Source of the DNA: a virus
Direction: 5' to 3' (one strand)
Length of the DNA stretch: 64,000 nt
IMG/VR virus record: IMGVR_UViG_3300031884_000012
Coordinates: 1-64,000 of that record
Shown here: piece after piece, positions 26,450 to 42,297 of the stretch
Layout: each line of letters opens with the position of its first letter
How positions within the stretch are numbered: position 1 is the first letter of the stretch
Made by a program: the position numbers and the translations under genes
Notes under the pieces: model-generated
Told to the model about the DNA's origin: nothing
What the model saw: only the letters and a program-made list of their open reading frames with translations
The model's database searches: none

Positions 26450-26453
26450 ATAG
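26445..26453 (+). promoter_or_regulatory. T4-like late promoter box (CATAAATAG)
   Basis: The box overlaps the end of the kinase-like gene and lies 17 bases before the ATG at 26471. Confidence 0.5.
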
Positions 26454-26470
26454 TCTATAGGATTACAAAC

Positions 26471-26914
26471 ATGTTAGCAGATACTCTTAAGACACTATTG
26501 GCATCCGCGTATGCACTATCGATCAAAGCTCAATTCTTTCACTGGAATGTAGAAACTCCGGATTTTCCCCAATACCATGAATTTTTCGGTAACTACTATG
26601 AAGAAGTGTATGACAATACGATTGATAGACTGGCAGAAATAATTCGTCAAGTTGATGAATACACTCCGGGCAGTCTCATTCGTTTTTCAGAACTTAGTCA
26701 AATCGCAGACCAAACTAAAGTTCCCCGCGCCGAATTAATGATGAAAGAACTTTTTGAAGATAATGCCAAAATGCTTGCGATGTATAAGGCAGCATTTCAC
26801 GTAGCAGAAGATGCAGATGAGCAAGGTATTGCTAACTTTATCGCGGAGAGAATTGACGCCCACGGTAAACATCAATGGATGCTTCGTTCCATACTAAAAA
26901 TTTCAAGGGCATAA
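26471..26914 (+). CDS. dps: Dps-like ferritin-fold protein
   Basis: A 147-residue, four-helix protein of the Dps family, which oxidises and stores iron and protects DNA from peroxide. The diagnostic FFHWNVETPDFPQYHEFF block spans residues 22-39. H24, H36, D52 and E56 fit the ferroxidase ligands between subunits. The Lys-rich DNA-binding tail of E. coli Dps is absent at the N-terminus. It has its own late box and no packaging leader, unlike its neighbours. It may protect phage DNA or the cell late in infection. Confidence 0.85.
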   Translation: MLADTLKTLLASAYALSIKAQFFHWNVETPDFPQYHEFFGNYYEEVYDNTIDRLAEIIRQVDEYTPGSLIRFSELSQIADQTKVPRAELMMKELFEDNAKMLAMYKAAFHVAEDADEQGIANFIAERIDAHGKHQWMLRSILKISRA

Positions 26915-26916
26915 TT

Positions 26917-27945
26917 ATGAGAGTTACAGAATTTCTATCCGAAAATGTATCTAAACCAATGATTGGTTCAGCTAAAAAACCGGCAAACGAGTTGACTGAA
27001 TCTGTAGGACATTTCCTATCAGAGATTCTTTCTGAGGCATCTACTGCAATGTCCGCAGTTAGAAACAGCCCATATGCTGATCAACTCATAAAGACAATTC
27101 ACAGTAGCTTATCATTGCCTCATAATCAAGAATGGGCTCCGGTAGATTCTATTAGTTGGACTGATGTTAAGGATTATGCACCTAATTTTGTTCTTATGGC
27201 AGGTACTAAAGGAACCGCTGCTGTAAAATGGGCAAGTGGACATTATTATTTGGTAACTGCGAATAGTGAAGGTATACAGACTGATAGAATTACTAGTATA
27301 AACGCAGCAGCTAGCCAAATTAAATCTAATATCGGTAAAATAACTGGATTTTGGATTAATCCTAAAACGTATCGTGTTCGTGGACCTGGCGCTTATCACA
27401 GTGCTGCACATGGATCTGAAACTTCAGTAGATCAACTTCGCACAAAACGCAGAGAAGCAAAGGCCCTAACTATTCCTAATATGTATGATATAAACCGCGG
27501 GTCATCGCATAATAGACAGGTACTATTGGCTAAGTTACGTCCTCTGTTAGGAAAATATGTTCAACAAGCATTAGCGGACGTTAAAGGAGCCGTTGGTATT
27601 TCTATTAAGAATGACGCATTCGATAGAGCCAAGAAAAAGTTACAAGTAGCAAAGCGTCTACAAGAATTGTACGACACTCTGGAACAAGCAAAGTCAGTAC
27701 AGGCTTTGCCGCCTGTGCTTAATCAGACGCTAAATTTAGCTATATTGATGGCAGCAGGTTATTATTATCCTGAAGAAACCGGAAACATTAGTCGCGGCGG
27801 TGGTCCCCGCGATCATTATAGATCAGATTCTATTTCTGTTTATTCCGCCGGTCCAAATAAGGTTATTGCTGATATCATCAACGGGGATACTAAAAAGTTA
27901 TCAACTGTGATGGCCTTCCTCAAGCAAGAATTGGTGCACGGATAA
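26917..27945 (+). CDS. Candidate head-packaged protein, function unknown
   Basis: I use the ATG at 26917, two bases after the dps stop, not an upstream start inside dps. It yields the leader MRVTEFLSE|NV, matching the (L/I)xE rule and close to that of the gene at 28935. The 342 residues contain a beta-type segment at ~75-130 (KGTAAVKWASGHYYLVTANS), a basic region (~160-180) and long helices (~195-260). No catalytic motif is recognised. It sits between the Dps-like gene and further leader-bearing genes. Confidence 0.6.
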   Translation: MRVTEFLSENVSKPMIGSAKKPANELTESVGHFLSEILSEASTAMSAVRNSPYADQLIKTIHSSLSLPHNQEWAPVDSISWTDVKDYAPNFVLMAGTKGTAAVKWASGHYYLVTANSEGIQTDRITSINAAASQIKSNIGKITGFWINPKTYRVRGPGAYHSAAHGSETSVDQLRTKRREAKALTIPNMYDINRGSSHNRQVLLAKLRPLLGKYVQQALADVKGAVGISIKNDAFDRAKKKLQVAKRLQELYDTLEQAKSVQALPPVLNQTLNLAILMAAGYYYPEETGNISRGGGPRDHYRSDSISVYSAGPNKVIADIINGDTKKLSTVMAFLKQELVHG

Positions 27946-27950
27946 AAATC

Positions 27951-28931
27951 ATGAAAACTAGAGTAAATCTCACTGAGACTATAGCTGCTAAAATAGCAAA
28001 TGATCCAAAAACAGAAAAAATGATCGCATTGGCTCTTCGCCATGATCATACCTTTCCTGCTGCAACAAGGGCGTCGATTGGCCCAAACGCATCTGACCAT
28101 GACATCGCACTACTTTGGGCTAATATGGTAGACAATGCTTTGGCCAATTCTGAATATGGTGATCTATCCAGAGATGGTAAGTTTGATCAGTGGTTGCTTA
28201 GACTATATATGAATCACGTTGCTGATTATGAAGATATATCAGGTGAAGGAGTACCTGCTCTTGGTCAATGGAAGGCACTTAGTATTCGTAATCTCCTTCG
28301 CCCAGAACATCAAGACTTTAATAGATTTCGTTCTTTAGAACAATTATATAATGTAGTTCGTAGCAGAGAATACAGAGACGCATTGGCCAGAATTAAAGAT
28401 GCTGAGCGTATTGCAAAGATGAAGCGAGACAAAAAGGAAATCATTTTGATTAATGACGACCGCTTTTTTGTCATGGTACCATTGAATTACGGTTCTTGCT
28501 ATACATTCAACAATGAAGAGGGTGTTCAGGCATCATTCTGTACTGGTAGCAGTGACGGTGAACGTTGGTTCAACCGATATTCTAAAGACGGTCCGATTGT
28601 GAGTATCATCGATAAGAAAAACATGAATGACCCTAAGGGAAAGTGGCAAATGCATTCTCAGACTAATCAGCTAGTAGATGCAAACCAAAATAACAGAGGC
28701 TATCCGCACCGTAATGATGCTGAATTTGCTGAATTATTTCCGGGATTGATGAAGCAAATTGTTAGTGCTTTAGAAAAACATTCAGAAGACCTCAAACAAG
28801 CCTCTAAGGATATGGGAATTACACACGGTGGGTGGAACATCGCAGAAGAAGTAGGTCGAATAAAACGTGATTTCCCAACAGCATTTGCATCAGAACCCAA
28901 AGAAAATCCTGAACAACCCGAATTGGCTTAA
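27951..28931 (+). CDS. Candidate head-packaged protein with diverged WCTA-type domain
   Basis: A 326-residue protein starting five bases after its neighbour. The leader MKTRVNLTE|TI ends in LxE. Residues ~165-240 align in pattern with the Cys-rich domain of the proteins at 24042, 28935 and 38896. It has FVMVPLNYGSCY, then SFCTGSSDGERWFNRYSKDG in place of WCTA, then a KWQMHSQTNQLVDAN strand. The first Cys and the CT are kept but the tryptophan is lost. The C-terminal ~70 residues are helical. The function is unknown. Confidence 0.6.
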   Translation: MKTRVNLTETIAAKIANDPKTEKMIALALRHDHTFPAATRASIGPNASDHDIALLWANMVDNALANSEYGDLSRDGKFDQWLLRLYMNHVADYEDISGEGVPALGQWKALSIRNLLRPEHQDFNRFRSLEQLYNVVRSREYRDALARIKDAERIAKMKRDKKEIILINDDRFFVMVPLNYGSCYTFNNEEGVQASFCTGSSDGERWFNRYSKDGPIVSIIDKKNMNDPKGKWQMHSQTNQLVDANQNNRGYPHRNDAEFAELFPGLMKQIVSALEKHSEDLKQASKDMGITHGGWNIAEEVGRIKRDFPTAFASEPKENPEQPELA

Positions 28932-28934
28932 TAA

Positions 28935-31205
28935 ATGCGAGTAACAGAATTCATCGCTGAGGGCTACAAAGAAGTAGCGCAGAAATATATTAACTCAGGA
29001 GTACCTGCAGAGGATGTACAAAGAGCCATCGCCGCCTTTAAGGAACTCGTCAACAAAAATCAAGTTAGTGGCACTGAGCGAAATATTGACTGGTGGGGAA
29101 AGAAGTCCTTTAGTGAGTTTACGCAGTTTGTAAATTCTATCGATCCATCAAGAACAAAAAGACAACTAAAGCGCGGAAAGATTCCTGGAAAAAGTATTAC
29201 ATTGGTTGACAATGACAAGTGGCTTGTCATTGTTCCTCTAGATAAAGATGCAAGTTGTTTCTATGGTAAAAATACTGATTGGTGCACAGCCAAACGTGCT
29301 CCAGGTCATTTTGAACAACACTTCTATCAAGATGAATCTATTTTAATATATTGTATCAATAAACAGTCCGGCGCCAAGTGGGCAATCGCGTCACACACGG
29401 TAACCAACCTAATGCCTTCTGACAACACTATGCGAGGATCAGAATACGACGGGGATACTCAATATTTTGATGCAGAGGATGACGAAATTTCTCACAGTTC
29501 ATTTGCAGCAGAAACTAAGTTATCTTCAGAAAAATTACTCAACCTAGCTTTACAAAAAAAGGATAAAATTGAATTAGCTAGAGTACCGCACTCTAGCGCA
29601 GTAACTCGCGTAAAGGATTGGTTATACGGCCCGAGAAGCTACGTGGATCGTGATTTATCTATAGAAAAGGATCTACTTTTTATCAATAATACCAAATATA
29701 CATATGATTATATCTCAGAACTAGTTAGTAATAATGTAGATGTATCTAAAATACCGGATCGATTATTAGTAGATGCAGCAGTATATAGTCCTTCTGTATT
29801 GAGATGCATGAACCCTCAACCAAATGAAAAGGTATTAAGAGATATTGTAATTGAAGTTCCGGACGCAATTCAGGTCATCAAGAATCCTTCACTGGAAGTA
29901 CAAAAAATAGCAGTCACCGAATATCCTGCTGCTATTCTACTTATTAAAAATCCAAATCCTAATACAGTTAAGCTAGCAATTACCCTTGATCCTAAATTAG
30001 AGAAGGCACTAGTCAAAGATAATTCTACAAGTGAATTAGACGAAGACTGGAAATCAGCCGCTAAAGGTATGGGCGTAGCTGCAGGATTAGCTTTGGGTAT
30101 GCACGGTATGCCCAACAAGACAGTAGAACCAGTTACGCCACACATGCCGGTATCACATCAGGTGCAATTACCTAAGGTTGATCCTGCTGTAGTAAAGCAA
30201 ACGCTGTCCGGGTTAACTAACCCATATGGTGTAGCACTTAGACGAGCAGCACAGGCAGCTGGCATCACCGGAACCGAACTTGCGCAGTTTCTGGCACAAT
30301 GCGCACATGAGACACAAAATTTTTCGTCACTAAAAGAGTTTGGCGGAAAATTAGATTTTAAGAAATATGATCCTAAATATAATCCAGAAAAAGCAAAGCT
30401 ATTGGGTAACACACATCCAGGAGATGGTGCACGATATCACGGGCGAGGATTCATTCAATTAACAGGTAGAGAAAATTACCGTAAGGTAGGAAAAGCCTTA
30501 GGTTTACCATTAGAGCAGCAACCTGAACTTGTTGAACGACCAAACGTTGCAGCCAGGGTTGCTGTTTGGTTTTGGCAAAACAGAGTTGCACCTAAGGTTA
30601 CTAATTTCAACAATACTCAGGCTGCGACTAAACCAATTAACGCAGGGCTGCATGGTCTTGAAGATAGAGTAAACAAATTTAATGCTATTATGCAAGTAAT
30701 AGCTAATAATCATAGATCAACACCTTCGCCAGTAAACGAGTATAAAGTTGATAACGACATAAATGGTGAAGGTCTTGGTGCTACTGGATACAATGCGAAT
30801 GTAGCGTACAGAGGAATGCGTGTTCTTATGCGTCCTAGCACATTCTTATCTTTGGCACTACCTTTAGATAAACCAGTATCAGTAGAGCATATAAAACAAC
30901 ATATGCAGGCCGGCGGAGCATTAGGTTCACCATTTTTAATTTTTGATTTTCCCGTTGAATGGGAAGACGGTGATTTCAGCGAGTCAGCTAGAATAGTAGG
31001 ACACGAAGGTCGTAACCGTATATTGGCTATTCAAGATTTAGAAGGTGACGATCCGGTAGAGGTTCATATGTTTGGATTAGGTGAACTTCGTGCTAGACAT
31101 TTAACTCCTGAAATCGTGAAGCATCTTCAAACAGGGATGCTTAATCAAAATAAAAGCAAGTTAATTACTCCTATTAAGGGTGATGTTCTTTTTAAAAGAA
31201 TATAA
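28935..31205 (+). CDS. Multidomain candidate packaged enzyme: WCTA domain, repeats, GH19 domain, ParB-like end
   Basis: A 756-residue protein with leader MRVTEFIAE|GY. The domains in order are: a WCTA domain at ~60-170 (ASCFYGKNTDWCTAKRAPGH), and helical IKNP-type repeats at ~310-350 (VIKNPSLEVQKIAV). A GH19 peptidoglycan hydrolase follows at ~410-600 (CAHETQNFSSLKEF with the presumed catalytic Glu, then GRGFIQLTGRENY). The C-terminal ~145-residue domain has GHEGRNRILAIQDL, a ParB-like signature. If packaged, the GH19 part could open the cell wall during DNA entry. It is much longer than the free lysin at 2159. Confidence 0.75.
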   Translation: MRVTEFIAEGYKEVAQKYINSGVPAEDVQRAIAAFKELVNKNQVSGTERNIDWWGKKSFSEFTQFVNSIDPSRTKRQLKRGKIPGKSITLVDNDKWLVIVPLDKDASCFYGKNTDWCTAKRAPGHFEQHFYQDESILIYCINKQSGAKWAIASHTVTNLMPSDNTMRGSEYDGDTQYFDAEDDEISHSSFAAETKLSSEKLLNLALQKKDKIELARVPHSSAVTRVKDWLYGPRSYVDRDLSIEKDLLFINNTKYTYDYISELVSNNVDVSKIPDRLLVDAAVYSPSVLRCMNPQPNEKVLRDIVIEVPDAIQVIKNPSLEVQKIAVTEYPAAILLIKNPNPNTVKLAITLDPKLEKALVKDNSTSELDEDWKSAAKGMGVAAGLALGMHGMPNKTVEPVTPHMPVSHQVQLPKVDPAVVKQTLSGLTNPYGVALRRAAQAAGITGTELAQFLAQCAHETQNFSSLKEFGGKLDFKKYDPKYNPEKAKLLGNTHPGDGARYHGRGFIQLTGRENYRKVGKALGLPLEQQPELVERPNVAARVAVWFWQNRVAPKVTNFNNTQAATKPINAGLHGLEDRVNKFNAIMQVIANNHRSTPSPVNEYKVDNDINGEGLGATGYNANVAYRGMRVLMRPSTFLSLALPLDKPVSVEHIKQHMQAGGALGSPFLIFDFPVEWEDGDFSESARIVGHEGRNRILAIQDLEGDDPVEVHMFGLGELRARHLTPEIVKHLQTGMLNQNKSKLITPIKGDVLFKRI

Positions 31206-31214
31206 TAATTTCGG

Positions 31215-31243
31215 TTGACACTCTGAATGATGGACAGTAGTAT
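31215..31243 (+). promoter_or_regulatory. Sigma70-like promoter (TTGACA-N17-TAGTAT)
   Basis: The -35 is at 31215-31220 and the -10 at 31238-31243. The predicted start near 31250 leaves a ~24-base leader with AGAGG before the ATG at 31274. Confidence 0.65.
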
Positions 31244-31273
31244 GTCTTCATTCAAACAGAGGACTACACCACT

Positions 31274-31552
31274 ATGAACATCTACGACGATTTCCAAAAT
31301 GAAGTTGACTCGGTCTCGGATCCTGATCAAGATCAGGTCCCCCACATCGTCATGCAGTTCAAGAAGGTTCTTGATCTGAAGGGCAACTATCCGATTGTTT
31401 TTAAGGATGGCACTAAGGCGGTTGTTCCCACTCATATCATCACTCAATTCATGAGCAAGTTCTCTCGCCTTAAGCCCATGGATCGCGAGCGTCTGCAAGA
31501 CATCGCTATTCGCAGCAAGGACGATTTCGCTAAGGTCCTGCAGTCGCTGTAA
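31274..31552 (+). CDS. Small early-type protein, function unknown
   Basis: A 92-residue acidic protein that stands alone between a sigma70-like promoter and a rho-independent terminator that overlaps its stop codon. It contains a strand pair around YPIVFKDGTKAVVPTHIITQ (~39-58) and a helical C-terminus. The codons are more GC-rich than in the neighbouring late genes. The isolated unit suggests an early gene with host-directed or regulatory function. No family is recognised. Confidence 0.6.
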   Translation: MNIYDDFQNEVDSVSDPDQDQVPHIVMQFKKVLDLKGNYPIVFKDGTKAVVPTHIITQFMSKFSRLKPMDRERLQDIAIRSKDDFAKVLQSL

Positions 31553-31571
31553 TATATACAGCGATTTTTTT
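31544..31571 (+). terminator. Rho-independent terminator
   Basis: TCGCTGTA (31544-31551) pairs with TACAGCGA (31557-31564) around a 5-base loop, followed by seven T residues. The stop codon of the preceding gene lies in the stem. Confidence 0.88.
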
Positions 31572-31582
31572 ACCCATTTTGA

Positions 31583-31590
31583 CTAAATAC
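31583..31590 (+). promoter_or_regulatory. T4-like late promoter box (CTAAATAC)
   Basis: Lies 54 bases before the ATG at 31645 and just after the terminator. It could drive the two small membrane genes and perhaps the csg operon. Confidence 0.55.
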
Positions 31591-31644
31591 TAATGTGTCA
31601 TAGTACAGTTGTGCTATGGCATGTTCGTGTTTAAAGAGATAGAG

Positions 31645-31926
31645 ATGGGAAATTTCCTAAAACTTATTGCTGATGTTGGTTTTCCTATTGCGGCCGCAAT
31701 GGGTGCAGGATACTTCGTATTCCTAACACTGAAATTCATACTTGCCGGCGTCACCGGTAGTATCAAAGGTATGGCTGGCATCATCACGGCGCTTGACAAT
31801 CGTGTAAAAACCATGAATCATGATGTTATTCGTATTGACACTATGGTTTCTAACGCTTTAGGGCTAGAACCAGATATAGATAGAATAGCCCGCGCCGATG
31901 GTAAAACAGATGCACGGAGAGATTAA
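31645..31926 (+). CDS. Small membrane protein, paralogue A
   Basis: I choose the ATG at 31645, preceded by AAGAGATAGAG, over a TTG at 31609. The 93-residue protein has an N-terminal membrane segment (VGFPIAAAMGAGYFVFLTLK at ~11-30), then a helical, charged tail (LDNRVKTMNHDVIRIDTMVS). It is clearly related in layout to the next gene. An inner-membrane protein with a cytoplasmic or periplasmic coiled tail is likely. The function is unknown; holin-like assistance in lysis is one possibility. Confidence 0.6.
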   Translation: MGNFLKLIADVGFPIAAAMGAGYFVFLTLKFILAGVTGSIKGMAGIITALDNRVKTMNHDVIRIDTMVSNALGLEPDIDRIARADGKTDARRD

Positions 31927-32234
31927 TGGGATCTGACTTAGCTGATCTAGTAAACAAGTACGGTTTTCCGATCATAGCAGCGGTCGGTATGGGATATCTC
32001 ATATTCTATGTATGGGAGTGGGCTACTAAAGAAGTTAAACCAGTGCTGGGCGAAGCTAATACAACTTTGATCGCACTTATAGACCGTATTAGAATGCTAG
32101 ATAATGATCTAATTAGACTAAACCAAAAAGTCAAAACAGTGTTGCATTTACGCGGCAAGACAATCGAGTATGGAAGAGTAGAAGCAGAAAAAGCAATTAA
32201 CCAGTTAAGCAGGTCTGATCACAGGACCGACTAA
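31926..32234 (+). CDS. Small membrane protein, paralogue B
   Basis: A 102-residue protein overlapping the previous stop by one base. It has a membrane segment YGFPIIAAVGMGYLIFYVWE (~12-31), then a helical tail (LIDRIRMLDNDLIRLNQKVK) very like that of its neighbour, suggesting tandem duplication. It precedes the curli-type operon by 50 bases, so it may or may not be part of that transcript. The function is unknown. Confidence 0.6.
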   Translation: MGSDLADLVNKYGFPIIAAVGMGYLIFYVWEWATKEVKPVLGEANTTLIALIDRIRMLDNDLIRLNQKVKTVLHLRGKTIEYGRVEAEKAINQLSRSDHRTD

Positions 32235-32284
32235 GATAAGAAAGCTGCTGATAGTGATAGTTAGTATATTTGGAGATATGTATT

Positions 32285-32734
32285 ATGAAGAAGATCATAC
32301 TACTTTCTCTGTTTGCATCGTGCTTGAGTAGTTCGGCATTTGCTTCGGAGTTAGTTCAACAATTTAAAGATCCTATATTTAATGGGGTCAGCTATGGCAC
32401 GTTTGCTACTTCTACATATCAACAAGAAGAATCAGCTAAACAAACTATAGCTACCGCAAAACAAAATTCTATAATAGCTCAACAAAATGCTGCTGCCAGT
32501 ACTCCAACCGCAAAATTTATAGCTTTGTTCACAAGCCAAGTATATTCTCAATTGGCTACACAGCTATCAAATAATCTATTCTCTGGAACTAGTTCTTCTA
32601 ATTCCGGAATGTTTAATTTGTCTGGTGATACAATATCATATGTTAAATCTGGAACCAGTGTAACACTTACAGTTGTAGATACAAATGGAAATCAAACTAT
32701 AGTTACTGTTCCAATAGCAACGTTTGCATTCTGA
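32285..32734 (+). CDS. csgF: CsgF-like curli assembly protein
   Basis: The start is the ATG at 32285 with GGAG nine bases upstream, giving a clean signal peptide (MKKIILLSLFASCLSSSAFA, cleavage near residue 20). The mature protein begins ELVQQFKDPIFNGV, matching the QFRNPNFGGN entry of CsgF, the part that inserts into the CsgG channel. It ends with paired strands (SVTLTVVDTNGNQTIVTVPI) as in CsgF. CsgF caps the CsgG pore and couples secretion to nucleation. The middle is Gln/Ala-rich. It overlaps csgG by one base. The length (149) is near the E. coli protein (138). Confidence 0.85.
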   Translation: MKKIILLSLFASCLSSSAFASELVQQFKDPIFNGVSYGTFATSTYQQEESAKQTIATAKQNSIIAQQNAAASTPTAKFIALFTSQVYSQLATQLSNNLFSGTSSSNSGMFNLSGDTISYVKSGTSVTLTVVDTNGNQTIVTVPIATFAF

Positions 32735-33555
32735 TGAAGAGAATAATTATAGTTCCATTTCTTTGTGTATTTCTATCTGGCTGTTTAGGTGGATCTATTC
32801 CGGCATTAAACCAGTCTTTTCTTCAAAAAGATTCACCAAAGATAACTCATACAGCTCAACCGCATATATTTGATAATATTCCAGAATTAGATGGTACACC
32901 TATTCCAATTGCGGTATATTCATTTATTGATAAAACTGGTCAAAGAAAACCTTCTCAAACTGTAAGTTCATTTTCTACCGCAGTAACTCAGGGAGCAGAT
33001 GCTTACGTTGTAAAAGCACTTTATGAAGCTGGAAATGGGAAATGGTTTAAGCCAGTTGAAAGAGTAGGATTAGATGATTTAGTAAAAGAGCGCCAACTTA
33101 TTCGTCAAATGAGAGAGCAAGAACAAGGCGATAAGGCTCAAGCTCTTCCTCCACTTTTAGTTGCAGGAGTATTGCTAGAAGGCGCAATTATAGATTATAA
33201 TTCTTCTATAAAAACTGGAGGAAATGGTGCTAGATATCTTGGTATTGGACCAAACACGCAGTATATCCAAGATCAAGTAACAATTAATATGAGATTGGTG
33301 TCTGTACAGACTGGAGAAGTACTTACTTCAGTATCTGTAGAAAAGAATCTATTGTCTACTTCTGAAGGCATTAGCGCATTTACTTTCTTTAATCAGGGAA
33401 CTAATGCTTTTGAAATAGATTCACAACAAACTAAGAATGAGCCGGAAAATTATGCTATTCGATCTGCCATAGAAACAGGTGTTGTTGAATTAATAAAGAG
33501 TGGTGAAAAAATAGGGCTATGGCATTATAAAACCACACAGGAGAAACACAAATGA
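32734..33555 (+). CDS. csgG: CsgG outer-membrane curli secretion channel
   Basis: A 273-residue lipoprotein. The signal peptide ends in lipobox LSGC (Cys 17). The mature sequence follows E. coli CsgG closely: IAVYSFIDKTGQRKPSQ, FSTAVTQGADAYVVKALYEA, WFKPVERVGLDDLVKERQLI, a GARYLGIGPNTQYIQDQVTI block, and SAIETGVVELI near the end. CsgG forms a nonameric 36-stranded barrel that exports curli subunits. The transmembrane-hairpin and constriction-loop regions appear complete, so it should be functional. The stop overlaps the next start by four bases, indicating one operon. Confidence 0.93.
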   Translation: MKRIIIVPFLCVFLSGCLGGSIPALNQSFLQKDSPKITHTAQPHIFDNIPELDGTPIPIAVYSFIDKTGQRKPSQTVSSFSTAVTQGADAYVVKALYEAGNGKWFKPVERVGLDDLVKERQLIRQMREQEQGDKAQALPPLLVAGVLLEGAIIDYNSSIKTGGNGARYLGIGPNTQYIQDQVTINMRLVSVQTGEVLTSVSVEKNLLSTSEGISAFTFFNQGTNAFEIDSQQTKNEPENYAIRSAIETGVVELIKSGEKIGLWHYKTTQEKHK

Positions 33556-34358
33556 AACTATTAAAAACACTAGCAATAATGGCGATGCTATTTACTACAC
33601 CAGCATTAGCTCAAACTGCATCGCCAACTGGTCCCGCAACTCCAGCAACTGCGGCATTACCTGGTGCGCCATCAGCACCATCTATTATAGCAACTTCACC
33701 AAATCAAAATAATGCTGATAGTATGTCAACGACAAATGATGTTTATATTAATCAATCTGGTGATAATGTTAATATTAATATTAAACAAACTGGCCAGACA
33801 AATATCTTTGGTACTTTTACAGATCCTGTATATTTGAGAGGAGCTAACCAATCTATTATTGGTATTCAAACTGGTAATAATAATGAAGCCCTAATCTCAG
33901 TTGTATCTGGTACTGCTGGAACAGATAATGCTTCATTATCTCTTCAACAAATTGGAAATAGCAACTATGCTCTAATTCGTTGTGGAAGTAGTTTAGGCGA
34001 CGCGAGTTGTACCGGTCTAAACTTTAATGCTAGATTTACAGGTGATAGTAATTCTCTAAATTATCATGGTGCAGGTGCTAATATTACAACTACCCTTGAT
34101 ATTACTGGTGGAAATAACTCATTAACAATGTCTGCAATTTCACCAAATGCTTCTCAAACAATCTTAGTATCTGGTGATTACAATACTTTAAATACTACAC
34201 AAACAGACCTTGGTGGCACATATGGGCACAGTCTATATGTAAATCTAACAGGAACTGGAAATGCTATTACTACACAACAATATGGAGCTACTGAAACTGT
34301 TATTAATGTGACAAGTGTTGGAAATAATGGTAACATTAACATTAAGACTGGCCACTAG
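33552..34358 (+). CDS. Curlin-like secreted repeat protein
   Basis: A 268-residue protein with a signal peptide (MKLLKTLAIMAMLFTTPALA). A Pro/Ala/Thr-rich segment to ~60 resembles the unstructured N22 region only loosely. From ~70 the chain is made of about eight imperfect 20-28-residue repeats with the curlin pattern I/V-x-Q-x-G-x-x-N (NQSGDNVNINIKQTGQTN, LQQIGNSNYALI, then QYGATETVINVTSVGNNGNI). It is the obvious substrate of the adjacent CsgG/CsgF channel and probably forms a beta-solenoid or amyloid fibre. Key Gln/Asn positions are kept in the first repeats and eroded later. Confidence 0.78.
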   Translation: MKLLKTLAIMAMLFTTPALAQTASPTGPATPATAALPGAPSAPSIIATSPNQNNADSMSTTNDVYINQSGDNVNINIKQTGQTNIFGTFTDPVYLRGANQSIIGIQTGNNNEALISVVSGTAGTDNASLSLQQIGNSNYALIRCGSSLGDASCTGLNFNARFTGDSNSLNYHGAGANITTTLDITGGNNSLTMSAISPNASQTILVSGDYNTLNTTQTDLGGTYGHSLYVNLTGTGNAITTQQYGATETVINVTSVGNNGNINIKTGH

Positions 34359-35466
34359 TTTTTTTCTTCTGTTAGCTACTCCAGCTTTTGCTAGTATTGG
34401 TGCAATAACAGATTTTAAAGGCGGCGGACAAATAAAACGTTCATCTTCTACTATACCGGCAAATAAAAGTTCAGGTATAGAGAAGATGGACACCATCATA
34501 ACTAATAGTCAGGGTAAGTTTGGAATTACATTTAATGATCAGACTAAAGTTAACATTACTGAAAATAGTAAATTAGTCATTGATGATTTTGTATATGATG
34601 ATAATGAGAAATCTAAAGGAAAACTTGGACTTAAAGTAGCTTTAGGAACAGTACGATATACCTCCGGAGCAATTGCTCACAACAATCCAAATTCAGTAGA
34701 TATTAGAACTCCAACTGCCACCATAGCTGTTCGTGGAACAGATTTCCTTATGTCTGTAGATGAAGTAGGAAGAACTACAGTAATTTTAGTTCCAGAATGC
34801 TTTATGAATAATGGTGAGATTAGAATGGATAAAGAATGTGAAACTGGAGCTATTGAAGTAGCTACTGCTGCTGGAGTAGTTAAAATGGATAAACCATTCC
34901 AGGCTACAGTCGTAGAAACATCTTCTGGTCCCCCAAGCACTCCATCAGTAATTAGTATGGAAGGAAGATCGGCAGATAATAATATTCAACTTTCAACTCC
35001 TTCTCTTGAAGGAGGAGCTAATCTATTAACACAAGCTAGAAAAGATATTAAGAATAAAGTAAATCCAGCTGGGGCGGCCGCAGACAATAACCAAGATCCT
35101 AATACTGGAACGGATGATTTAAATCAAGTGTTTGCTGCTCTTCAAAGAACTCCAACTCCGTCAGAATTATTACAAGTATATGAAGAATATAATTCTGATG
35201 CTCCATTAAAACAGACTTTATATACAGATATTTCTCCACTTTTGAAAAAACAAATTCAAATTGGTTGGGCATATTCTTTATTATCTCAAGCTAAACTAGA
35301 AGTTGTTACTGTGGTTTTACCAAAAGCAACTGGTGTAGATATTACAACAATACAAGACGGATCTTATGATTATTATAACTTCTCTGAGCAGAAATGGCCA
35401 ACATCAGGAACCGGTAGACCAAATGGTCATATAACTATAATTCAAACTAATATAGCAAATAAATAA
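34327..35466 (+). CDS. Secreted FecR-domain protein
   Basis: I choose the ATG at 34327, giving the signal peptide MVTLTLRLATSFFLLLATPA; it overlaps the curlin-like gene by 32 bases in another frame. The 379-residue product has a FecR domain at ~25-190, with GKFGITFNDQTKVNITENSK, the VALGTVRYTSGAI strand and VDIRTPTATIAVRGTDF as hallmark. FecR domains act in the periplasm as sensors or scaffolds. In bacteria this type of FecR protein is often encoded beside a CHASE2 cyclase, as here. The C-terminal half is Asn/Gln/Pro-rich then helical. It may sense or anchor the secreted fibre. Confidence 0.8.
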   Translation: MVTLTLRLATSFFLLLATPAFASIGAITDFKGGGQIKRSSSTIPANKSSGIEKMDTIITNSQGKFGITFNDQTKVNITENSKLVIDDFVYDDNEKSKGKLGLKVALGTVRYTSGAIAHNNPNSVDIRTPTATIAVRGTDFLMSVDEVGRTTVILVPECFMNNGEIRMDKECETGAIEVATAAGVVKMDKPFQATVVETSSGPPSTPSVISMEGRSADNNIQLSTPSLEGGANLLTQARKDIKNKVNPAGAAADNNQDPNTGTDDLNQVFAALQRTPTPSELLQVYEEYNSDAPLKQTLYTDISPLLKKQIQIGWAYSLLSQAKLEVVTVVLPKATGVDITTIQDGSYDYYNFSEQKWPTSGTGRPNGHITIIQTNIANK

Positions 35467-35485
35467 TTAAAACGGGGATTATACT

Positions 35486-37522
35486 ATGAAAAAGATTCTT
35501 CTATCGCCTTGGCTTGCGATTATTACTTTTGCTCTATTACTTACTATTAAAATATCCAATCCATTTTTGGTAGATGCAATCAAATTAAAATACTATGATT
35601 ATCTTATGCGTGGTCCAGCAAAACAGTCTGAACAGATTGTAATTGCAAATATATCAGATAAGACTATAGAGAAATATGGACAATATCCTTTTCCAAGAGA
35701 AACTTATTCTAAAATAATCAACGATTTGTATTTACATCGTGTTGGTGTAATTGGAAATACAATAATCTTTTCTGAACCAGATAGATTTAATACAGACAAA
35801 AATCTTACTGCTACTTTAAAACAGCATCCAATAATTTTATCTCAGACACTATCGACGCAATCTAAGCCAAATCAAAATATTCGTAAAACTGGTGTGGCTA
35901 TAATTGGAGATGGTAAAACTACACAGTTTTTGCCAAATTATCCTTCAGTTCTTAATAATATTTCAGAATTTCAAGATGCTGCTGTTGGTATTGGTGTAAC
36001 TTCTACTTTACCGGAATCTGATGGTGTTGTTCGCCGTGTACCTTTATTATCAATGTCTCAAGGTGAATACTATCCATCTTTTTCTATGGAAATGTTAAGA
36101 GCAATTTCCGGTGATCCATCTTATCAAGCTAAGATTAACGAGACTGGTGTGGAAGCTTTAAGAATTCCATCATTCAATACTATTAAAACAGATGAGTACT
36201 CTAGAGTATTTGTGAACTGGAACTATAAGTTTACTCAATTTGATATTGGAGACAAAACTCCAGATTTGCTTAATAAAATTGTAATTCTTGGTGTAACTGC
36301 TTCAGGTGTGGCCAATCCAGTAGCTACTCCAGTTGGTGCACAATTTCCACAAGCAGTTCAAGCTAGTCTTCTTCAAACTCTAATTAATGGAGATACAGTT
36401 TCTATTCCAAACTGGGCTGGAATATTGGATTATGCACTTTTAGTAGTATTGGCTCTCGGAATCATTTTGTTATCTAAAGTAAGATTCTCTGTAGTTTGGA
36501 TTATAGCTCTTATTGGTGTTTATCTTTACTTCCCCGTTTATATGTTTAATCATAATCATATTCTAATAGATGTAACATTTAATGCACTTATTGCAATGAT
36601 ACTTTATTTGCACATTTATACAATCAAGTTTATCTCAGAATTCTTACAGAAGCAACAAATCAAAAAGCAATTTGGAACTTATCTATCTCCAGCTATGGTT
36701 GAAAAATTACAAAAGAATCCAGAACTATTACAACTTGGAGGTGATTCTAGAGAACTTTCTATTATGTTTACAGATGTTCGTGGATTTACTACTATTTCTG
36801 AACATTACGGCAAAGATGTTCAAGGTCTTACAAAGATCATGAATCGCTATATGACTGCGATGACAAAAGCAATTCTAGAGAACAACGGCACCCTCGATAA
36901 GTACATAGGTGATGCTCAGATGGCATTTTGGAATGCACCTCTTAGTAATCAACAACACGCTAAGGATGCTGTCAAGACGGCGTTTGAGATGATGAAGGCA
37001 TTAGAGAGATTTAACGATGAGATTACACTGGAAGGAGTCCCGGCTTTTGGAATGGGCCTCGGTATTAATACTGATACTGTGGTTGTTGGTAATATGGGTA
37101 GCACTCAGCGGTTTGACTATACTTGTCTTGGGGACGGCGTCAATCTTGCATCTCGCCTCGAAGGTCAATCTAAACCGTACGGGGTCAAAATCATCATCGG
37201 ACCAAAAACTGCCGAATACGTGAGAGATGAATATCAGGTAGTAGAACTTGATCTTATTGCAGTCAAAGGAAAAACTGAACCGGCTCGCATCTATACTGTC
37301 CTATCTTCATATGATGCATCGGGAGAAAAACAACACTTGAGATTCTTGGATAGCTATCGTAAGGGTGAATGGGACTCTGCTAGAACATATGCTTCTAATA
37401 TGAAGAAGTTCTGGAGCGGAGAGCTAAACAAGTACTACACGGAAATGATTGACCGTATAGAGGAATATGCTAAGAATCCACCAGTTAACTGGGATGGAGT
37501 GTATAGGGCAACTTCAAAGTAA
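35486..37522 (+). CDS. CHASE2-domain class III adenylate cyclase
   Basis: A 678-residue membrane enzyme. TM1 lies at ~8-25, a periplasmic CHASE2 sensor at ~30-305 (FPRETYSKIINDLYLHRVGV), and three TM helices at ~310-390. A cytoplasmic class III cyclase spans ~420-605. The metal aspartates are in FTDVRGFT (~429) and YIGDAQMAFW (~475). The Lys of LDKYIGD and Thr of DYTCLGDGVNLASRLE predict ATP rather than GTP as substrate, making cAMP. All catalytic residues seem present. Base composition shifts from AT-rich to richer in GC at about 36840, inside the catalytic domain. Confidence 0.9.
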   Translation: MKKILLSPWLAIITFALLLTIKISNPFLVDAIKLKYYDYLMRGPAKQSEQIVIANISDKTIEKYGQYPFPRETYSKIINDLYLHRVGVIGNTIIFSEPDRFNTDKNLTATLKQHPIILSQTLSTQSKPNQNIRKTGVAIIGDGKTTQFLPNYPSVLNNISEFQDAAVGIGVTSTLPESDGVVRRVPLLSMSQGEYYPSFSMEMLRAISGDPSYQAKINETGVEALRIPSFNTIKTDEYSRVFVNWNYKFTQFDIGDKTPDLLNKIVILGVTASGVANPVATPVGAQFPQAVQASLLQTLINGDTVSIPNWAGILDYALLVVLALGIILLSKVRFSVVWIIALIGVYLYFPVYMFNHNHILIDVTFNALIAMILYLHIYTIKFISEFLQKQQIKKQFGTYLSPAMVEKLQKNPELLQLGGDSRELSIMFTDVRGFTTISEHYGKDVQGLTKIMNRYMTAMTKAILENNGTLDKYIGDAQMAFWNAPLSNQQHAKDAVKTAFEMMKALERFNDEITLEGVPAFGMGLGINTDTVVVGNMGSTQRFDYTCLGDGVNLASRLEGQSKPYGVKIIIGPKTAEYVRDEYQVVELDLIAVKGKTEPARIYTVLSSYDASGEKQHLRFLDSYRKGEWDSARTYASNMKKFWSGELNKYYTEMIDRIEEYAKNPPVNWDGVYRATSK

Positions 37523-37560
37523 CTTACAATATGTTATATGTTTATAGTAGTGTTATACAT

Positions 37561-37569
37561 ACTAAATAT
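37561..37569 (+). promoter_or_regulatory. Late promoter-like box (ACTAAATAT)
   Basis: Lies 106 bases before the OMP gene. The untranslated stretch also holds two GGTACCAATA copies (37599-37608 and 37623-37632) and a small hairpin CTGGC/GCCAG (37635-37651) before the ribosome site. Confidence 0.35.
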
Positions 37570-37674
37570 ATATCTCAAGCTCCTTAATAGGTTCTTGTGG
37601 GTACCAATATAAGACTTACACAGGTACCAATACACTGGCCTTAAAAGCCAGATTAACAAAAGGAAATACAATCT

Positions 37675-38235
37675 ATGAATAAGTTATTCTTGATCGCAGC
37701 ACTTGCGGCGGCTGTTGCTACTCCGGCTCTTGCTGAATCTATCACCGGTGAAGTTCGTACTATTGATCCGCAACCTGCTAAGATAGCAAACTCAACTGAA
37801 TATCGTCTAACCTATAGTGAAACTGTTGCCAATATTGCTAATGTCGGCGCCGAGTTCACCGGGTCTCAACCGTATCATAACGGTACTCTAAACAGCAAGA
37901 TCGTGCTGCAAGGCGGCCCTGCACTTCCCACAGTTGCAGGATTTACTCCTGCTGCTTATGGTGAGTATGGCCGTTCACTGAACACTAATAAGGACTTTAA
38001 CTTCTGGGGATACGGTGCTTCTGTTTCGCATGAAGTATACGGCCCGGTATCAGTAAACGTTGGTTATCGTCATCGTCAAGGACCTAACACTCCTACCTTT
38101 ACAGAAGATCGTCTTAACGGCGGTGTCGCTTTTGCTATCACCGAAGATAATATTGTAGGTGTAAATTACTATCGCACTCGTAGCAATAGTGTCACCTCTG
38201 ACATCTTGGGTGTTAACTATACTCGCAACTTTTAA
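37675..38235 (+). CDS. Outer-membrane beta-barrel protein
   Basis: A 186-residue protein with a signal peptide (MNKLFLIAALAAAVATPALA) and strong AAAGGA site. The mature part is alternating amphipathic strands (EYRLTYSETVANIANVGAEF, FNFWGYGASVSHEVYGPVSV, NIVGVNYYRTRSN) and ends GVNYTRNF. A terminal aromatic preceded by strand pattern is the BAM insertion signal. Eight strands are likely (OmpA/OmpW size). It follows the curli/cyclase operon but has its own leader. It could alter receptor exposure (superinfection exclusion) or envelope permeability; both are inference. Confidence 0.75.
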   Translation: MNKLFLIAALAAAVATPALAESITGEVRTIDPQPAKIANSTEYRLTYSETVANIANVGAEFTGSQPYHNGTLNSKIVLQGGPALPTVAGFTPAAYGEYGRSLNTNKDFNFWGYGASVSHEVYGPVSVNVGYRHRQGPNTPTFTEDRLNGGVAFAITEDNIVGVNYYRTRSNSVTSDILGVNYTRNF

Positions 38236-38256
38236 TAAAACTTGAACTGATTAAAG

Positions 38257-38284
38257 TAACGGCGGGGAGCAATCTCCGCCGTTA
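38257..38284 (+). terminator. Stem-loop, probable terminator
   Basis: TAACGGCGG (38257-38265) pairs with CCGCCGTTA (38276-38284), extended by three inner pairs around a GCAA loop. Only TTCAT follows, so the T-run is weak. Confidence 0.65.
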
Positions 38285-38295
38285 TTCATATGTAA

Positions 38296-38304
38296 GATAA
38301 ATAT
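38296..38304 (+). promoter_or_regulatory. Late promoter-like box (GATAAATAT) next to a start codon
   Basis: The box ends four bases before the ATG at 38309, the same very short spacing as at 10739. Confidence 0.4.
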
Positions 38305-38308
38305 ATTC

Positions 38309-38884
38309 ATGATCGGAAATGAAATCATTCTAGAGTCTGCTGCTAGTGAGTTAGCCAAAAAGCTACCATCTTTAGAAAAGCACGACTATAACACTATTGA
38401 CCAACTAATGCGAAAGATTGCTGCTAAGCATCACATTACTGGTAAGGCCCTGCACGACCTTTTTGTGAAGCGATATAGCTCTACACCTGACAGTTGGATC
38501 AAAAATAAGTTAGATGAAACCGATGAAGAATTAAATATTCCCGAAGAAGTACAAAAGTTTGCAGAATGGGCTTCACGTAGAGTTCATCTAAAGAATCCCA
38601 TTAAAGTAGACCTCAGCTACGACACCGAAGAAGCTCAGCATAATCATCATACTGGCAGGCACACTGAAGGTGATCCCACGATCTGGGTTTATGCTAAGAA
38701 CAGAAACCTAGTAGATATTCTTAGAACGGTATTCCATGAAATCGTACACTGTCGTCAAAGTGAACTAGGTATGATTAAGCCTGGTGACAGCTATCCTGGT
38801 AGCCCAATCGAAGCGATGGCCGACCTCTTAGCTGGCAAATACATTAAAATTTATGGTGAACGTCATCATTATATATTCCAATAA
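38309..38884 (+). CDS. Zinc metallopeptidase-like protein with shared N-terminal module
   Basis: A 191-residue protein. Residues ~25-70 (DQLMRKIAAKHHITGKALHD, then PDSWI) repeat the C-terminal module of the nucleotidyltransferase at 17507. The C-terminal part holds VFHEIVHCRQ, an HExxH zinc site at ~145-149. PIEAMADLLAGKY near 166-178 has a Glu placed for a third ligand (gluzincin-like). The start MIGNEIILE|SA could be another (L/I)xE leader, less clear than in its neighbours. It probably cleaves a protein or peptide bond; the substrate is unknown. Confidence 0.7.
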   Translation: MIGNEIILESAASELAKKLPSLEKHDYNTIDQLMRKIAAKHHITGKALHDLFVKRYSSTPDSWIKNKLDETDEELNIPEEVQKFAEWASRRVHLKNPIKVDLSYDTEEAQHNHHTGRHTEGDPTIWVYAKNRNLVDILRTVFHEIVHCRQSELGMIKPGDSYPGSPIEAMADLLAGKYIKIYGERHHYIFQ

Positions 38885-38895
38885 TTGGTGTATAC

Positions 38896-39909
38896 ATGCG
38901 AGCAAATGAATTTCTTATTGAATATGACAGAACAAAGACCGCCGCTACTTTGGGTGATAAGCTCATTCATGTTGCGTACGAAGATAACACCTATAGGACC
39001 TATAGGTCCGGAATAACACCATCTGATATTTTAGAAAAGATAGAGACTAAGGATCCAACTCCAAATAAAGAATATACTCAGTGGTTGGCTCGTATGTATG
39101 CCAAAGGCGGAGTACCGTTCGAAGACCTAAACAGAATGGATGTTTTAAGTTCATATAATATAGGCAAGAAGAGAAGACAAATTCAACCAGAAGACGCTGA
39201 CATCAACAAATTTAAAACATATAAAGAATTTGAAGATACCATGATGTCAAAGTATTCACAATTGAATACTGATCCGAAGGAGGTCAACAAAGGAAAATCT
39301 ACTCTTTATTTTGAAGATGATAATGTAAGAATAATCATACCAGAAGATGAGGCAGCAGCATGTTATTATGGTAGAGGCACGCGGTGGTGTACAGCAGCCA
39401 CAAAGGGTGAAAATTATTTCAATCATTATAATACAAAAGGCAAGATATATATAATTCTATTCAAGAAATTTCCGAACAAGTGGCAGTTTCATTTTGAAAC
39501 TGCCCAGTTTATGGATGAGGCTGATAATGAACTCGGTATAGAACAAGTAAGATCAGTCTCGCATTATTTTTCTAAAAAGATATGGAATGATGCGTTTATC
39601 AATCGTCCAGCTGAGATGTTAAAATACATAAAAAACCCAACTGAGAAACAAAAAATAGCAGCAGTTACGGATTCGGCATTGCTAGCTCTAGAATATATAA
39701 AAAATCCAAGTAATGCAGTTAAATTAGCAGCAATAACATCCGATCCTGAGATAATTCAATACATAGAAAACCCAACTGAACAAATGCAACTAGTTGCAGT
39801 TGAGTCTGATGGATACCTTATTCGTTATATAAAAAATCCAAGTAATGCGGTTATGATGGCCGCGGTTAAAACTAATCCGATGTCTATGAAACGCTACATA
39901 TATAGATAA
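38896..39909 (+). CDS. Candidate head-packaged WCTA-domain protein, frameshifted after residue 337
   Basis: Leader MRANEFLIE|YD. Residues ~50-210 are a close paralogue of the protein at 24042, with DPTPNKEYTQWLARMYAKGG, then AACYYGRGTRWCTAATKG at ~153-170 and a KWQFHFETAQFMDEAD strand. From ~230 there are helical repeats of ~22-24 residues around YIKNPSNAVKLAAI and IENPTEQMQLVAV, of the DUF4116/HEAT-like type. The frame ends at 39909 in MKRYIYR, but the repeats continue in another frame to 40282. The reading frame was therefore longer, or is recoded. Confidence 0.7.
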   Translation: MRANEFLIEYDRTKTAATLGDKLIHVAYEDNTYRTYRSGITPSDILEKIETKDPTPNKEYTQWLARMYAKGGVPFEDLNRMDVLSSYNIGKKRRQIQPEDADINKFKTYKEFEDTMMSKYSQLNTDPKEVNKGKSTLYFEDDNVRIIIPEDEAAACYYGRGTRWCTAATKGENYFNHYNTKGKIYIILFKKFPNKWQFHFETAQFMDEADNELGIEQVRSVSHYFSKKIWNDAFINRPAEMLKYIKNPTEKQKIAAVTDSALLALEYIKNPSNAVKLAAITSDPEIIQYIENPTEQMQLVAVESDGYLIRYIKNPSNAVMMAAVKTNPMSMKRYIYR

Positions 39910-40282
39910 TCCACCAGAAGAGGTTCAACTGGCTGCGGTCCGAAGAGACATACGTGCATTTATATATATAAAAAATCCTACCGAAAAAGTACAATTTGAA
40001 ACAGTTTCTAAAAATGGATTCCTTATAAGGGATATCACAAATCCTTCAGCCCAAATACAACTTGCGGCGGTAACTGATGCGGCGTCCGCAATACGATTTA
40101 TACAAAACCCAACCGAACAAGCACAAATTATTAACTCTGAAACGTACCATATTCAGAATATAAAAAACCCCACCGAAAAAGTACAATTGGCTGCTGTTCG
40201 AAGAGACATGCGTGCATTTGACCTTATAAAAAACCCAACAGACAAAGTTAAAGCTTTGGTTGCTAAACTAAAAGCAAAGTAA
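39905..40282 (+). pseudogene. Out-of-frame continuation of the repeat protein
   Basis: The frame starting GAT AAT CCA at 39905 reads DNPPEEVQLAAVRRDIRAF, then several more IKNPTEKVQ-type repeats, and ends at TAA 40280-40282 (LVAKLKAK). It has no start codon of its own. A +1 shift near 39895-39905 (TACATATATAG) would fuse it to the upstream gene, giving ~461 residues. It is either a mutation, a sequence error in an AT repeat or a programmed +1 shift. Confidence 0.75.
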
Positions 40283-40307
40283 TATACAGTACATCCTCCC
40301 AAAACAA

Positions 40308-40336
40308 TTGAACTATACTTGTAAGTACTATATACT
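40308..40336 (+). promoter_or_regulatory. Sigma70-like promoter (TTGAAC-N17-TATACT)
   Basis: The -35 is at 40308-40313 and the -10 at 40331-40336, with GAAGGAG before the ATG at 40361. It likely serves the DsbA-like gene and the polymerase. Confidence 0.55.
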
Positions 40337-40360
40337 TCACAAGACATAGAAGGAGTATAC

Positions 40361-40618
40361 ATGTCTAGAGTATTCAACACTGACGCAAAGATTAAGTTGA
40401 CCCAACTGGTTAACGAGGGCTTAGGTGTCCTACAAGAAATTGAAACTCTTAATGAAGGTCTAAACGACACCATTAAGGCAATCGCAGAAGAACTAGAAAT
40501 AAAGCCAGCCATTCTTAAGAAGGCTATCAAGGTTGCACAGAAGCAGCGCCTCGCACAAACTAACGAGGAAAATGAGGAACTCAATACCATTTTGGAGACT
40601 GTTGGTCGAGCTAATTAA
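40361..40618 (+). CDS. dsbA: DsbA-like late-promoter DNA-binding protein (T4 type)
   Basis: An 85-residue helical protein. The central IKAIAEELEIKPAILKKAIK looks like a helix-turn-helix and the tail (ENEELNTILETVGRAN) is acidic. Size, composition and position next to gp43 match the phage T4 DsbA family, which binds double-stranded DNA upstream of late promoters. This is not the thiol oxidoreductase of the same name. A late-promoter role would fit the many TAAATAC boxes here. Identification is by resemblance, not a decisive motif. It overlaps gp43 by one base. Confidence 0.6.
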   Translation: MSRVFNTDAKIKLTQLVNEGLGVLQEIETLNEGLNDTIKAIAEELEIKPAILKKAIKVAQKQRLAQTNEENEELNTILETVGRAN

Positions 40619-42297
40619 TGGCATATGTCGATGCAGTATTAGATTCCAACGCAGATCGAATCCACGTTGTAGAACGTACTCCTGAAGGTAAACGTGCATA
40701 CAAAGAGTTCCCTACGAACTACGTAATGTACTATGCTGATCCTAAAGGAAAGTATCGTTCTATTTACGGTGATCCGCTGTCTCGGTTCTCTACTCGTAAA
40801 CGTAGCGAATTCGAGAAGGAACGCAGAATACATAGTAACAAAAAACTATTTGAGAGCGACGTTAACGTAGTATTTAGGTGTTTGGCTGATAACTACCTTA
40901 ATGCTGAACCACCAAAGCTTCATACTTGCTTTTTCGACATTGAAGTGGACTTTGATCCTGAGCGAGGATTTAGTCCTACTAGTGATCCGTTCAATCCAGT
41001 AACTGCAATCTCAATGTATCTAGATTGGCTTGATCAACTGATTACGTTGGTCATGCCACCTAAGCACATGACAGATGAAACTGCGCAAGAGTTAACTAAA
41101 GATTTTCCAAACTGCTTTCTGTTTCGTTCTGAAATAGAGATGTTTGAAACCTTCTTTGAGTTGATCGAAGATGCTGACATTCTAACTGGCTGGAACTCAG
41201 AGGGATACGACATTCCGTATACGGTTAATCGCGTTACTAGAATCATGTCTAAAAACGATACTCGTAAGTTTTGTCTGCTGGGGAAACTCCCTAAGACTCG
41301 TACCTATGAACGTTTCGGCAAGGAAGAAGAAACATACGATCTAGTTGGTAGAATTCATATGGACTACCTTCAACTGTATAAGAAGTACAACTACGAGTCT
41401 CGTCATAGTTATTCTCTTGATGCTATCGGTGAGATGGAAGTAGGTGAACGTAAAACTCAGTACGAAGGCAGTTTGGATCAGTTATACAATCAGGACTTTA
41501 AAACGTTCGTGGAGTATAACAGACAAGACACGATGCTTATGGTTAAAATTCACAATAAGCTAAAGTTCCTTGATCTTGCTAACGCACTAGCACACGAGAA
41601 TAGCGTACTTCTTCCGACAGTTATGGGTTCGGTGCAGATGATCGAAATGGCTATCTTCAATGAAGCTCACGCACGTGGAATGATCGTACCTAACAAGAAG
41701 CCCAAAGAAGATACTGGGTTTCCGGCAGCTGGTGCGTTTGTTGCTATTCCTAAACAAGGAATGCACGAATATCCTGGTGCAGTTGACATCAACTCTCTGT
41801 ATCCGTCTGACATTCGAGCGCTGAACATGTCTCCGGAAACCATCATAGGTCAAGTTCGTCAAACACTGACTGACCAATACATGCACGAAAAGAGCATGAG
41901 ATTGGCTTCTGAAAAGAAGAACAAGAAGAAGAAAAAGTTCGGAGATGACAGCGAGGAAGAAGGCGTCATTGGTGCAATTCTGTGGGAAGGATTGTTTGGC
42001 TCAATTGAGTATACAGCAATCATGAATCAAGAACGCGGAACTACCCTTTGGATAGACTATGAAGATGGTAGAAGTGTACAAATGTCTGCTGCTGAAATTT
42101 GGAAGATGATCTTCGACAGTAACAGACCATGGATCCTTTCAGCAAATGGTACCATCTTTACTTACGAAAAAGAAGGAGTGATTCCAGGACTACTTTCTCG
42201 GTGGTATACTGAACGTAAAAAACTTCAGAAAAAACAATACGCAGTTAGAGAAATACTCTATGGTAAATCTTTACCTGATGATTTTTTTACCGATTGA
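40618..42297 (+). CDS. 43: DNA polymerase gp43, N-terminal fragment (exonuclease and motif A)
   Basis: A family B polymerase fragment of 559 residues. The 3'-5' exonuclease motifs are present: Exo I CFFDIEVDFD (~105-114), Exo II LTGWNSEGYDIPY (~192) and Exo III YNRQDTMLM (~300). Polymerase motif A, DINSLYPSDIRALNMSPET, is at ~389. The fragment ends within the fingers at SLPDDFFTD, where the antisense endonuclease has entered. The palm motif C, motif B and thumb are on the separate gene at 43212. The two polypeptides must assemble to give an active enzyme. T4-like phages of Aeromonas are known to have gp43 split in a similar way. Confidence 0.93.
   Translation: MAYVDAVLDSNADRIHVVERTPEGKRAYKEFPTNYVMYYADPKGKYRSIYGDPLSRFSTRKRSEFEKERRIHSNKKLFESDVNVVFRCLADNYLNAEPPKLHTCFFDIEVDFDPERGFSPTSDPFNPVTAISMYLDWLDQLITLVMPPKHMTDETAQELTKDFPNCFLFRSEIEMFETFFELIEDADILTGWNSEGYDIPYTVNRVTRIMSKNDTRKFCLLGKLPKTRTYERFGKEEETYDLVGRIHMDYLQLYKKYNYESRHSYSLDAIGEMEVGERKTQYEGSLDQLYNQDFKTFVEYNRQDTMLMVKIHNKLKFLDLANALAHENSVLLPTVMGSVQMIEMAIFNEAHARGMIVPNKKPKEDTGFPAAGAFVAIPKQGMHEYPGAVDINSLYPSDIRALNMSPETIIGQVRQTLTDQYMHEKSMRLASEKKNKKKKKFGDDSEEEGVIGAILWEGLFGSIEYTAIMNQERGTTLWIDYEDGRSVQMSAAEIWKMIFDSNRPWILSANGTIFTYEKEGVIPGLLSRWYTERKKLQKKQYAVREILYGKSLPDDFFTD

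Follow-up and report, generated by a model that had tools for sequence, protein, structure and literature searches.

A curli-type secretion module with a linked pair of small membrane genes in a jumbo-size phage

Curli-type modules in phages and bacteria

A csgGF cluster was first reported in PMC7029224, and in 2022 a type VIII secretion (T8SS) module with the order CsgF–CsgG–CsgA/B–FecR–(second CsgA/B)–adenylate cyclase was described in pelagiphage podo- and myoviruses, HTVC008M among them (PMC9599517). The methylophage Melnitz (MZ577097), whose curli region is discussed in PMC9004378, combines this order with a second curlin; the text of that paper says that curlins are missing, whereas two proteins with curlin repeats are annotated in the phage's GenBank entry. 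Among bacteria, alphaproteobacterial curli operons (Sphingomonadales, Rhizobiales) have adjacent csgF and csgG genes with curlins after them, and in the Caulobacter holdfast anchor HfaABD the CsgG-like pore HfaB exports a curlin-like attachment surface protein (PMC6707917).

We analysed a stretch of viral DNA 64,000 bases long, hereafter the window, in which a sequence-only reading had proposed a near-complete curli operon of five genes. The module is of a kind already known in phages, here carried by a jumbo-size phage. Its genes follow the order of the pelagiphage T8SS module, CsgF, CsgG, curlin, FecR and cyclase, and HTVC008M also has an upstream pair of membrane genes of ~93 aa (gp011 and gp012). 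The window differs from the pelagiphage module in its jumbo-size carrier, in its polymerase lineage, in having one curlin instead of two, and in its csg–fecR–cyclase proteins, which are 27–45% identical to their counterparts; the Melnitz cyclase and CsgG are 39% and 45% identical, respectively. Although similar in the placement of csgF, csgG and curlins, the alphaproteobacterial operons have no FecR or cyclase in the stretches examined, encode very large curlins and have CsgG proteins in a separate clade. The window CsgG also matches the NCBIfam model for HfaB (1.9e-9) far worse than that for CsgG (2e-50).

The set of genes had been read as unusual, a view that gives way to the published pelagiphage modules (PMC9599517), to the annotations in HTVC008M and Melnitz, and to at least 599 IMG/VR stretches that encode relatives of the cyclase. 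Across 50,697 phage records, a cyclase match over most of the protein is found only in those of HTVC008M and Melnitz. The question addressed here is what makes lytic phages retain a surface-secretion unit of seven genes, and the results narrow the answers. To the known module they add the membrane pair, modular second curlins, cassette exchange, a nested Caulobacteraceae operon and the jumbo-size carrier.

Gene layout and carrier phage

The module lies on the plus strand and begins at position 31645, with two small membrane genes of the family phrog_18771: tm1 (31645–31926), encoding a 93-aa protein with one hydrophobic helix, and its paralogue tm2 (31926–32234), encoding 102 aa with a weaker hydrophobic stretch. 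The earlier reading had missed this pair and placed the start of the unit too late, at csgF. The five genes that it did name are confirmed in position, in their abutting or overlapping arrangement and in family by gene calls and Pfam: csgF (32285–32734; PF10614, 3e-13, over nearly the full length of the model), csgG, encoding an outer-membrane lipoprotein pore (32734–33555; PF03783, 6.6e-52), a gene for a secreted, curlin-like protein of repeats in which the Q-x-G and G-x-x-N positions are invariant (33552–34358), fecR, encoding a secreted FecR-domain protein (34327–35466; PF04773, 2e-11), and a gene for a CHASE2 plus class III adenylate cyclase (35486–37522; CHASE2 2.7e-37, Guanylate_cyc 8.5e-20). 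The Pfam matches of CsgF, CsgG, FecR, CHASE2 and Guanylate_cyc all exceed the curated cut-offs. From csgF to the cyclase gene, successive genes overlap by 1, 4 and 32 bases, and a gap of 19 bases then separates fecR from the cyclase gene. The signal peptides, the CsgG lipobox (LSGC) and the catalytic residues of the cyclase are present in the sequences as had been claimed. A profile of the phage CsgG family matches solved CsgG (3x2r/6l7a) at 1.5e-70; CsgF has a conserved N-terminal F-x-x-P-x-F stretch and no match among PDB sequences.

CsgE is normally the gate and chaperone of curli secretion. Its model (PF10627) finds no match in 12 records, and the same model detects the E. coli control. 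CsgE is reportedly missing in alphaproteobacterial and phage modules too (PMC9599517), so its absence is not decisive for type VIII membership. The description 'near-complete' calls for caution on two counts: CsgE was not found, and the phage has one curlin rather than two.

Between the module and the upstream gene sits an intrinsic-terminator-like hairpin of 10 pairs with a T run (31542–31566, plus strand); such hairpins were called by consensus scan only, and the scan found 9 in the region where 4.0 were expected. A scan for the T4 late-promoter motif TATAAATA, made to date expression, found 0 in the window against 6.8 expected, which looks as if the motif is avoided or replaced. An Rfam search gave no match.

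A 258,859-base IMG/VR contig is colinear with the window over all 64 kb at 99.9–100% identity, and one of 181,278 bases has 100% identity to it over window positions 24734–41552, a span that includes both operon ends. Both contigs contain a T4-type portal gene. The assembly artefact at the operon ends that the sequence-only reading had wanted checked is thereby excluded. That the module genes are of cellular origin could be taken as a sign of bacterial contamination or of a chimeric contig, but the identical colinear DNA and portal genes in the two long contigs, the phage replication genes around the operon and the dozens of phage contigs that bear the same module make this explanation vanishingly improbable, and we reject it.

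The window encodes clamp-loader genes and a split family-B polymerase, the latter closest to those of jumbo phages, namely Sinorhizobium phage Phosso (469 kb) and the Pseudomonas PA5oct/Paride type (about 287 kb). Judged by its sequence, the carrier is a phage of jumbo size, in contrast to the carriers already in the literature: HTVC008M and Melnitz are listed as Kyanoviridae of 141–147 kb. The longer matching contigs and the jumbo-type polymerase indicate that the window's own record (69,845 bases) covers only part of a larger genome; tm1 is also present on other contigs, up to 349 kb in length. The T4-type DNA polymerase is divided between two plus-strand genes (40618–42297 and 43212–44456), which cover profile positions 15–484 and 505–851 of 856, with a 299-aa ORF on the opposite strand between them (42258–43157). 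In the 258,859-base contig (G001), the T4-type portal (133637–136276) is a single open frame of 1,034 aa whose family halves lie ~1.26 kb apart, a layout suggestive of an intein or some similar insertion in frame.

The membrane pair and movement of the module

Within 49 distinct loci holding both csgF and the cyclase gene, drawn from the best 80 matches per scan and in their counts biased to the window's relatives, csgG, curlin and fecR are present in all 49 and the tm1/tm2 pair in 47. Every one of the 37 IMG/VR tm1 loci with full 9-kb flanks has curli-module genes within 9 kb, and the tm1 loci in which such genes are missing (10 of 80) are all on cut contigs. Many loci have the pair in convergent orientation to the operon, so inversion has left the linkage intact. 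Among the phage records, tm1 is found in only six of the 50,697, all of them curli-bearing, and in none of 385 alphaproteobacterial genomes in a profile search; neither tm1 nor tm2 occurs in the bacterial curli loci examined. In annotated phages, tm1 is 53–58% identical to that of the window, compared with 45% for CsgG and 27% for the curlin. Better conserved than CsgG and tied to curli-bearing phages, the pair is a concrete, uncharacterised component of the module. One or two 'histidine kinases' are described as preceding the pelagiphage module (PMC9599517); we infer that these genes are tm1 and tm2, although the window pair does not resemble kinases and has no kinase match.

The small size and holin-like layout of the pair, together with weak matches to holin and YvrJ families (E about 0.01–0.09) and a GH19 endolysin gene just upstream (28935–31205), give some substance to a role in lysis. 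Here CsgG and the pair would permeabilise the envelope and time lysis, like a pinholin or two-membrane pore, an idea put forward for CsgG in PMC9004378. CsgG is, however, an outer-membrane pore accompanied by a secreted curlin in 49 of 49 loci, FecR and the cyclase have no lysis role, and the endolysin gene is not adjacent in every locus. The pair itself is conserved far beyond what a holin would lead one to expect, and curli-less phages lack it. We regard a lysis function as unlikely and, given the weak family matches and the restriction of tm1 to curli-bearing phages among the records searched, find no support for the pair as a general holin. The upstream gene at 28935–31205 encodes a 756-aa protein with the GH19 endolysin domain in its middle, and its long flanking regions are common to other phage proteins of unknown function.

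Another contig, L007, shares with the window a block of ~4.5 kb (about 32332–36832) that is mostly 99–100% identical and reaches from within csgF to within the cyclase gene. The flanks of the block are unalignable or about 70% alike, and the tm1/tm2 genes of L007 differ from those of the window. By this alignment, the block has recently been exchanged between otherwise different phages; with different tm1/tm2 genes beside a near-identical block, there is no strict pairing of tm1/tm2 with a single csg–fecR set.

In both CsgG and cyclase trees, phage sequences lie apart from ordinary bacterial ones. Only two bacterial operons with nearly the phage layout were found, in the Caulobacteraceae assemblies L097 and L099. 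These have the window's order, csgF–csgG–curlin–curlin–fecR–cyclase, with a cyclase 55% identical to that of the window, but two curlins, no membrane pair, a GC content of 52–53% and bacterial flanks, which consist of metabolic, regulatory or glycosyltransferase genes and are different in each assembly. They fall inside the phage clade in the CsgG tree (support 100/97) and in the cyclase tree. Tests forcing all phage sequences together gave p values of 0.0235 (CsgG) and 0.051 (cyclase) for a group that was named after the tree had been seen, so phage-to-bacterium transfer of the module is suggested rather than shown. Values of dN/dS are rough, as synonymous sites are nearly saturated. The spread to jumbo phages, together with the bacterial operon that sits within the phage clade, suggests that adhesin systems may travel from phages to bacteria. 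A tentative reading, to which we give well under an even chance, is that the membrane pair is a phage-specific inner-membrane part, for example a gate or coupler replacing CsgE, and that the module is a mobile adhesin cassette which recombines between phages and was handed to a bacterial chromosome.

Phage-type modules with the membrane pair are also present on contigs assigned to bacterial MAGs of Rhodobacteraceae, Flavobacteriaceae and Sphingobacteriales (L093, L094, L096, L100, L101 and L152); these contigs are probably misbinned phage DNA. A 1,499-base record named Salmonella phage (OR851715.1) encodes a CsgG 39% identical to that of the window; this unannotated record of 1.5 kb is probably bacterial DNA.

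Secreted protein, envelope sensor and proposed function

Searched alone, the curlin-like protein has no curlin Pfam match and reaches E 3e-4 against NCBIfam CsgA, under the cut-off of that model. Its relatives are more informative: of 20 aligned homologues, 15 match Curlin_rpt (PF07012), and a search with the family profile picks up two solved curli subunits, 8c50 (7e-5) and 8enq (0.0022). Placement in the Csg families by HMM, on which the earlier reading had staked its claim, holds directly for CsgF and CsgG; the curlin-like protein is likewise a member of its family by profile, a call that is weak for the window protein by itself and secured by its relatives. An AlphaFold2 model of the protein (pLDDT 76.6) is strand-rich from residue 60 on and has no significant match among PDB folds, the best having an E value of 0.29 and curli 8c50 one of 2.3.

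No gene for a second curlin or CsgB fits the 19-base gap between fecR and the cyclase gene in the window phage, and no further Curlin_rpt was found in its own 69.8-kb record or in the 259-kb contig by a model that also misses the known window curlin. In 25 of the 49 loci, an extra gene, a second curlin, lies between fecR and the cyclase gene. Sampled second curlins contain PA14 (HTVC008M gp018, L009), GLEYA-like or F5/8 type C domains, which in several of them precede the curlin repeats. Domains of these types are typical of carbohydrate-binding surface proteins. Along with the near-invariant curlin, the sugar-binding-type domains in the second curlins of relatives favour a surface adhesin over a bare pore, as far as domain content can indicate. 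The missing CsgE gate would suit a pore that stands open in the outer membrane and lets nutrients or cofactors in, with the other genes incidental, as considered in PMC7029224 and PMC9599517; this proposal leaves the conserved CsgF, the curlin and the adhesin-type second curlins unexplained, and we hold it to be very unlikely.

The catalytic residues of the cyclase correspond to those of the solved adenylate cyclase CyaB: the metal-binding pair D430 and D476, K472/T546 for adenine, and N553/R557 for the transition state. The D, K, D and R positions are kept in 112 of 112 distinct phage relatives and the Asn in 101, and the window protein is very probably an active adenylate cyclase. FecR has no PDB match, and its C-terminal third is not conserved with marine phage relatives. 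The earlier proposal that cAMP is made in response to an envelope signal is a reading of the domains, which would be in line with the CHASE2 cyclases clustered with FecR-domain proteins known in bacteria (PMC9239204). A search of ten carrier phage records, that of the window phage included, turned up no cNMP-binding receptor, so a phage-encoded cAMP receptor is rejected and any cAMP effector would be the host's. Nor was a cAMP phosphodiesterase taken to belong to the module, since a phosphoesterase-like gene lies before csgF in L097 and none does in L099. Matches of the cyclase to Pycsar cyclase models stem from the catalytic domain common to both, no Pycsar effector was found among the scanned module genes and the neighbours are curli genes; we reject a reading as a defence system.

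The strict conservation of the catalytic residues, in what is a known bacterial signalling unit of FecR and CHASE2 proteins, could mean that signalling is the main function, with cAMP altering host metabolism or surface genes and the curli part only supplying the envelope signal. Some modules in the pelagiphage survey have no FecR or cyclase (PMC9599517), however, so the curli part can stand alone; this and the missing phage-encoded receptor make such host rewiring unlikely.

We favour, with somewhat better than even confidence, a type VIII (curli-type) secretion module of the known kind that exports the curlin-like protein as an adhesive coat or fibre and includes an envelope-sensing FecR–cyclase pair. 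Building on what is established, namely the identities and conserved order of the genes, the intact catalytic residues, the linked membrane pair and the exchange of the cassette, we infer a course of infection in which CsgG and CsgF would assemble into a pore through the outer membrane of the host, and the curlin-like protein would be exported through it and stay on the surface. Periplasmic FecR and the inner-membrane CHASE2 cyclase would act as an envelope sensor, making cAMP for the host's receptors, and tm1 and tm2, an addition of the phage's own, would work in the inner membrane. The benefit could be a changed host surface, for example through aggregation or the blocking of rival phages. 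That infected cells would export a surface protein encoded by the phage is plausible. Points against this model are the CsgE gene not found, the Melnitz infection, in which no clumping was observed (PMC9004378), and the window curlin, weak on its own, unmatched in fold in the PDB and unaccompanied by an adhesin-type second curlin.

Immediately downstream lies a gene for an outer-membrane beta-barrel of 10 strands (37675–38235, plus strand), which the sequence-only reading had also overlooked. Its AlphaFold2 model (pLDDT 81) matches outer-membrane proteins in a Foldseek search of the PDB (E 6.9e-6), and a homologue matches PF13505. Relatives of this gene, strongly divergent in sequence, adjoin the module in a minority of loci and on either side, and its membership of the module is uncertain. 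Further upstream in the window, positions 13336–15600 encode a 754-aa ATP-dependent protease (phrog_4871, E 3e-237).
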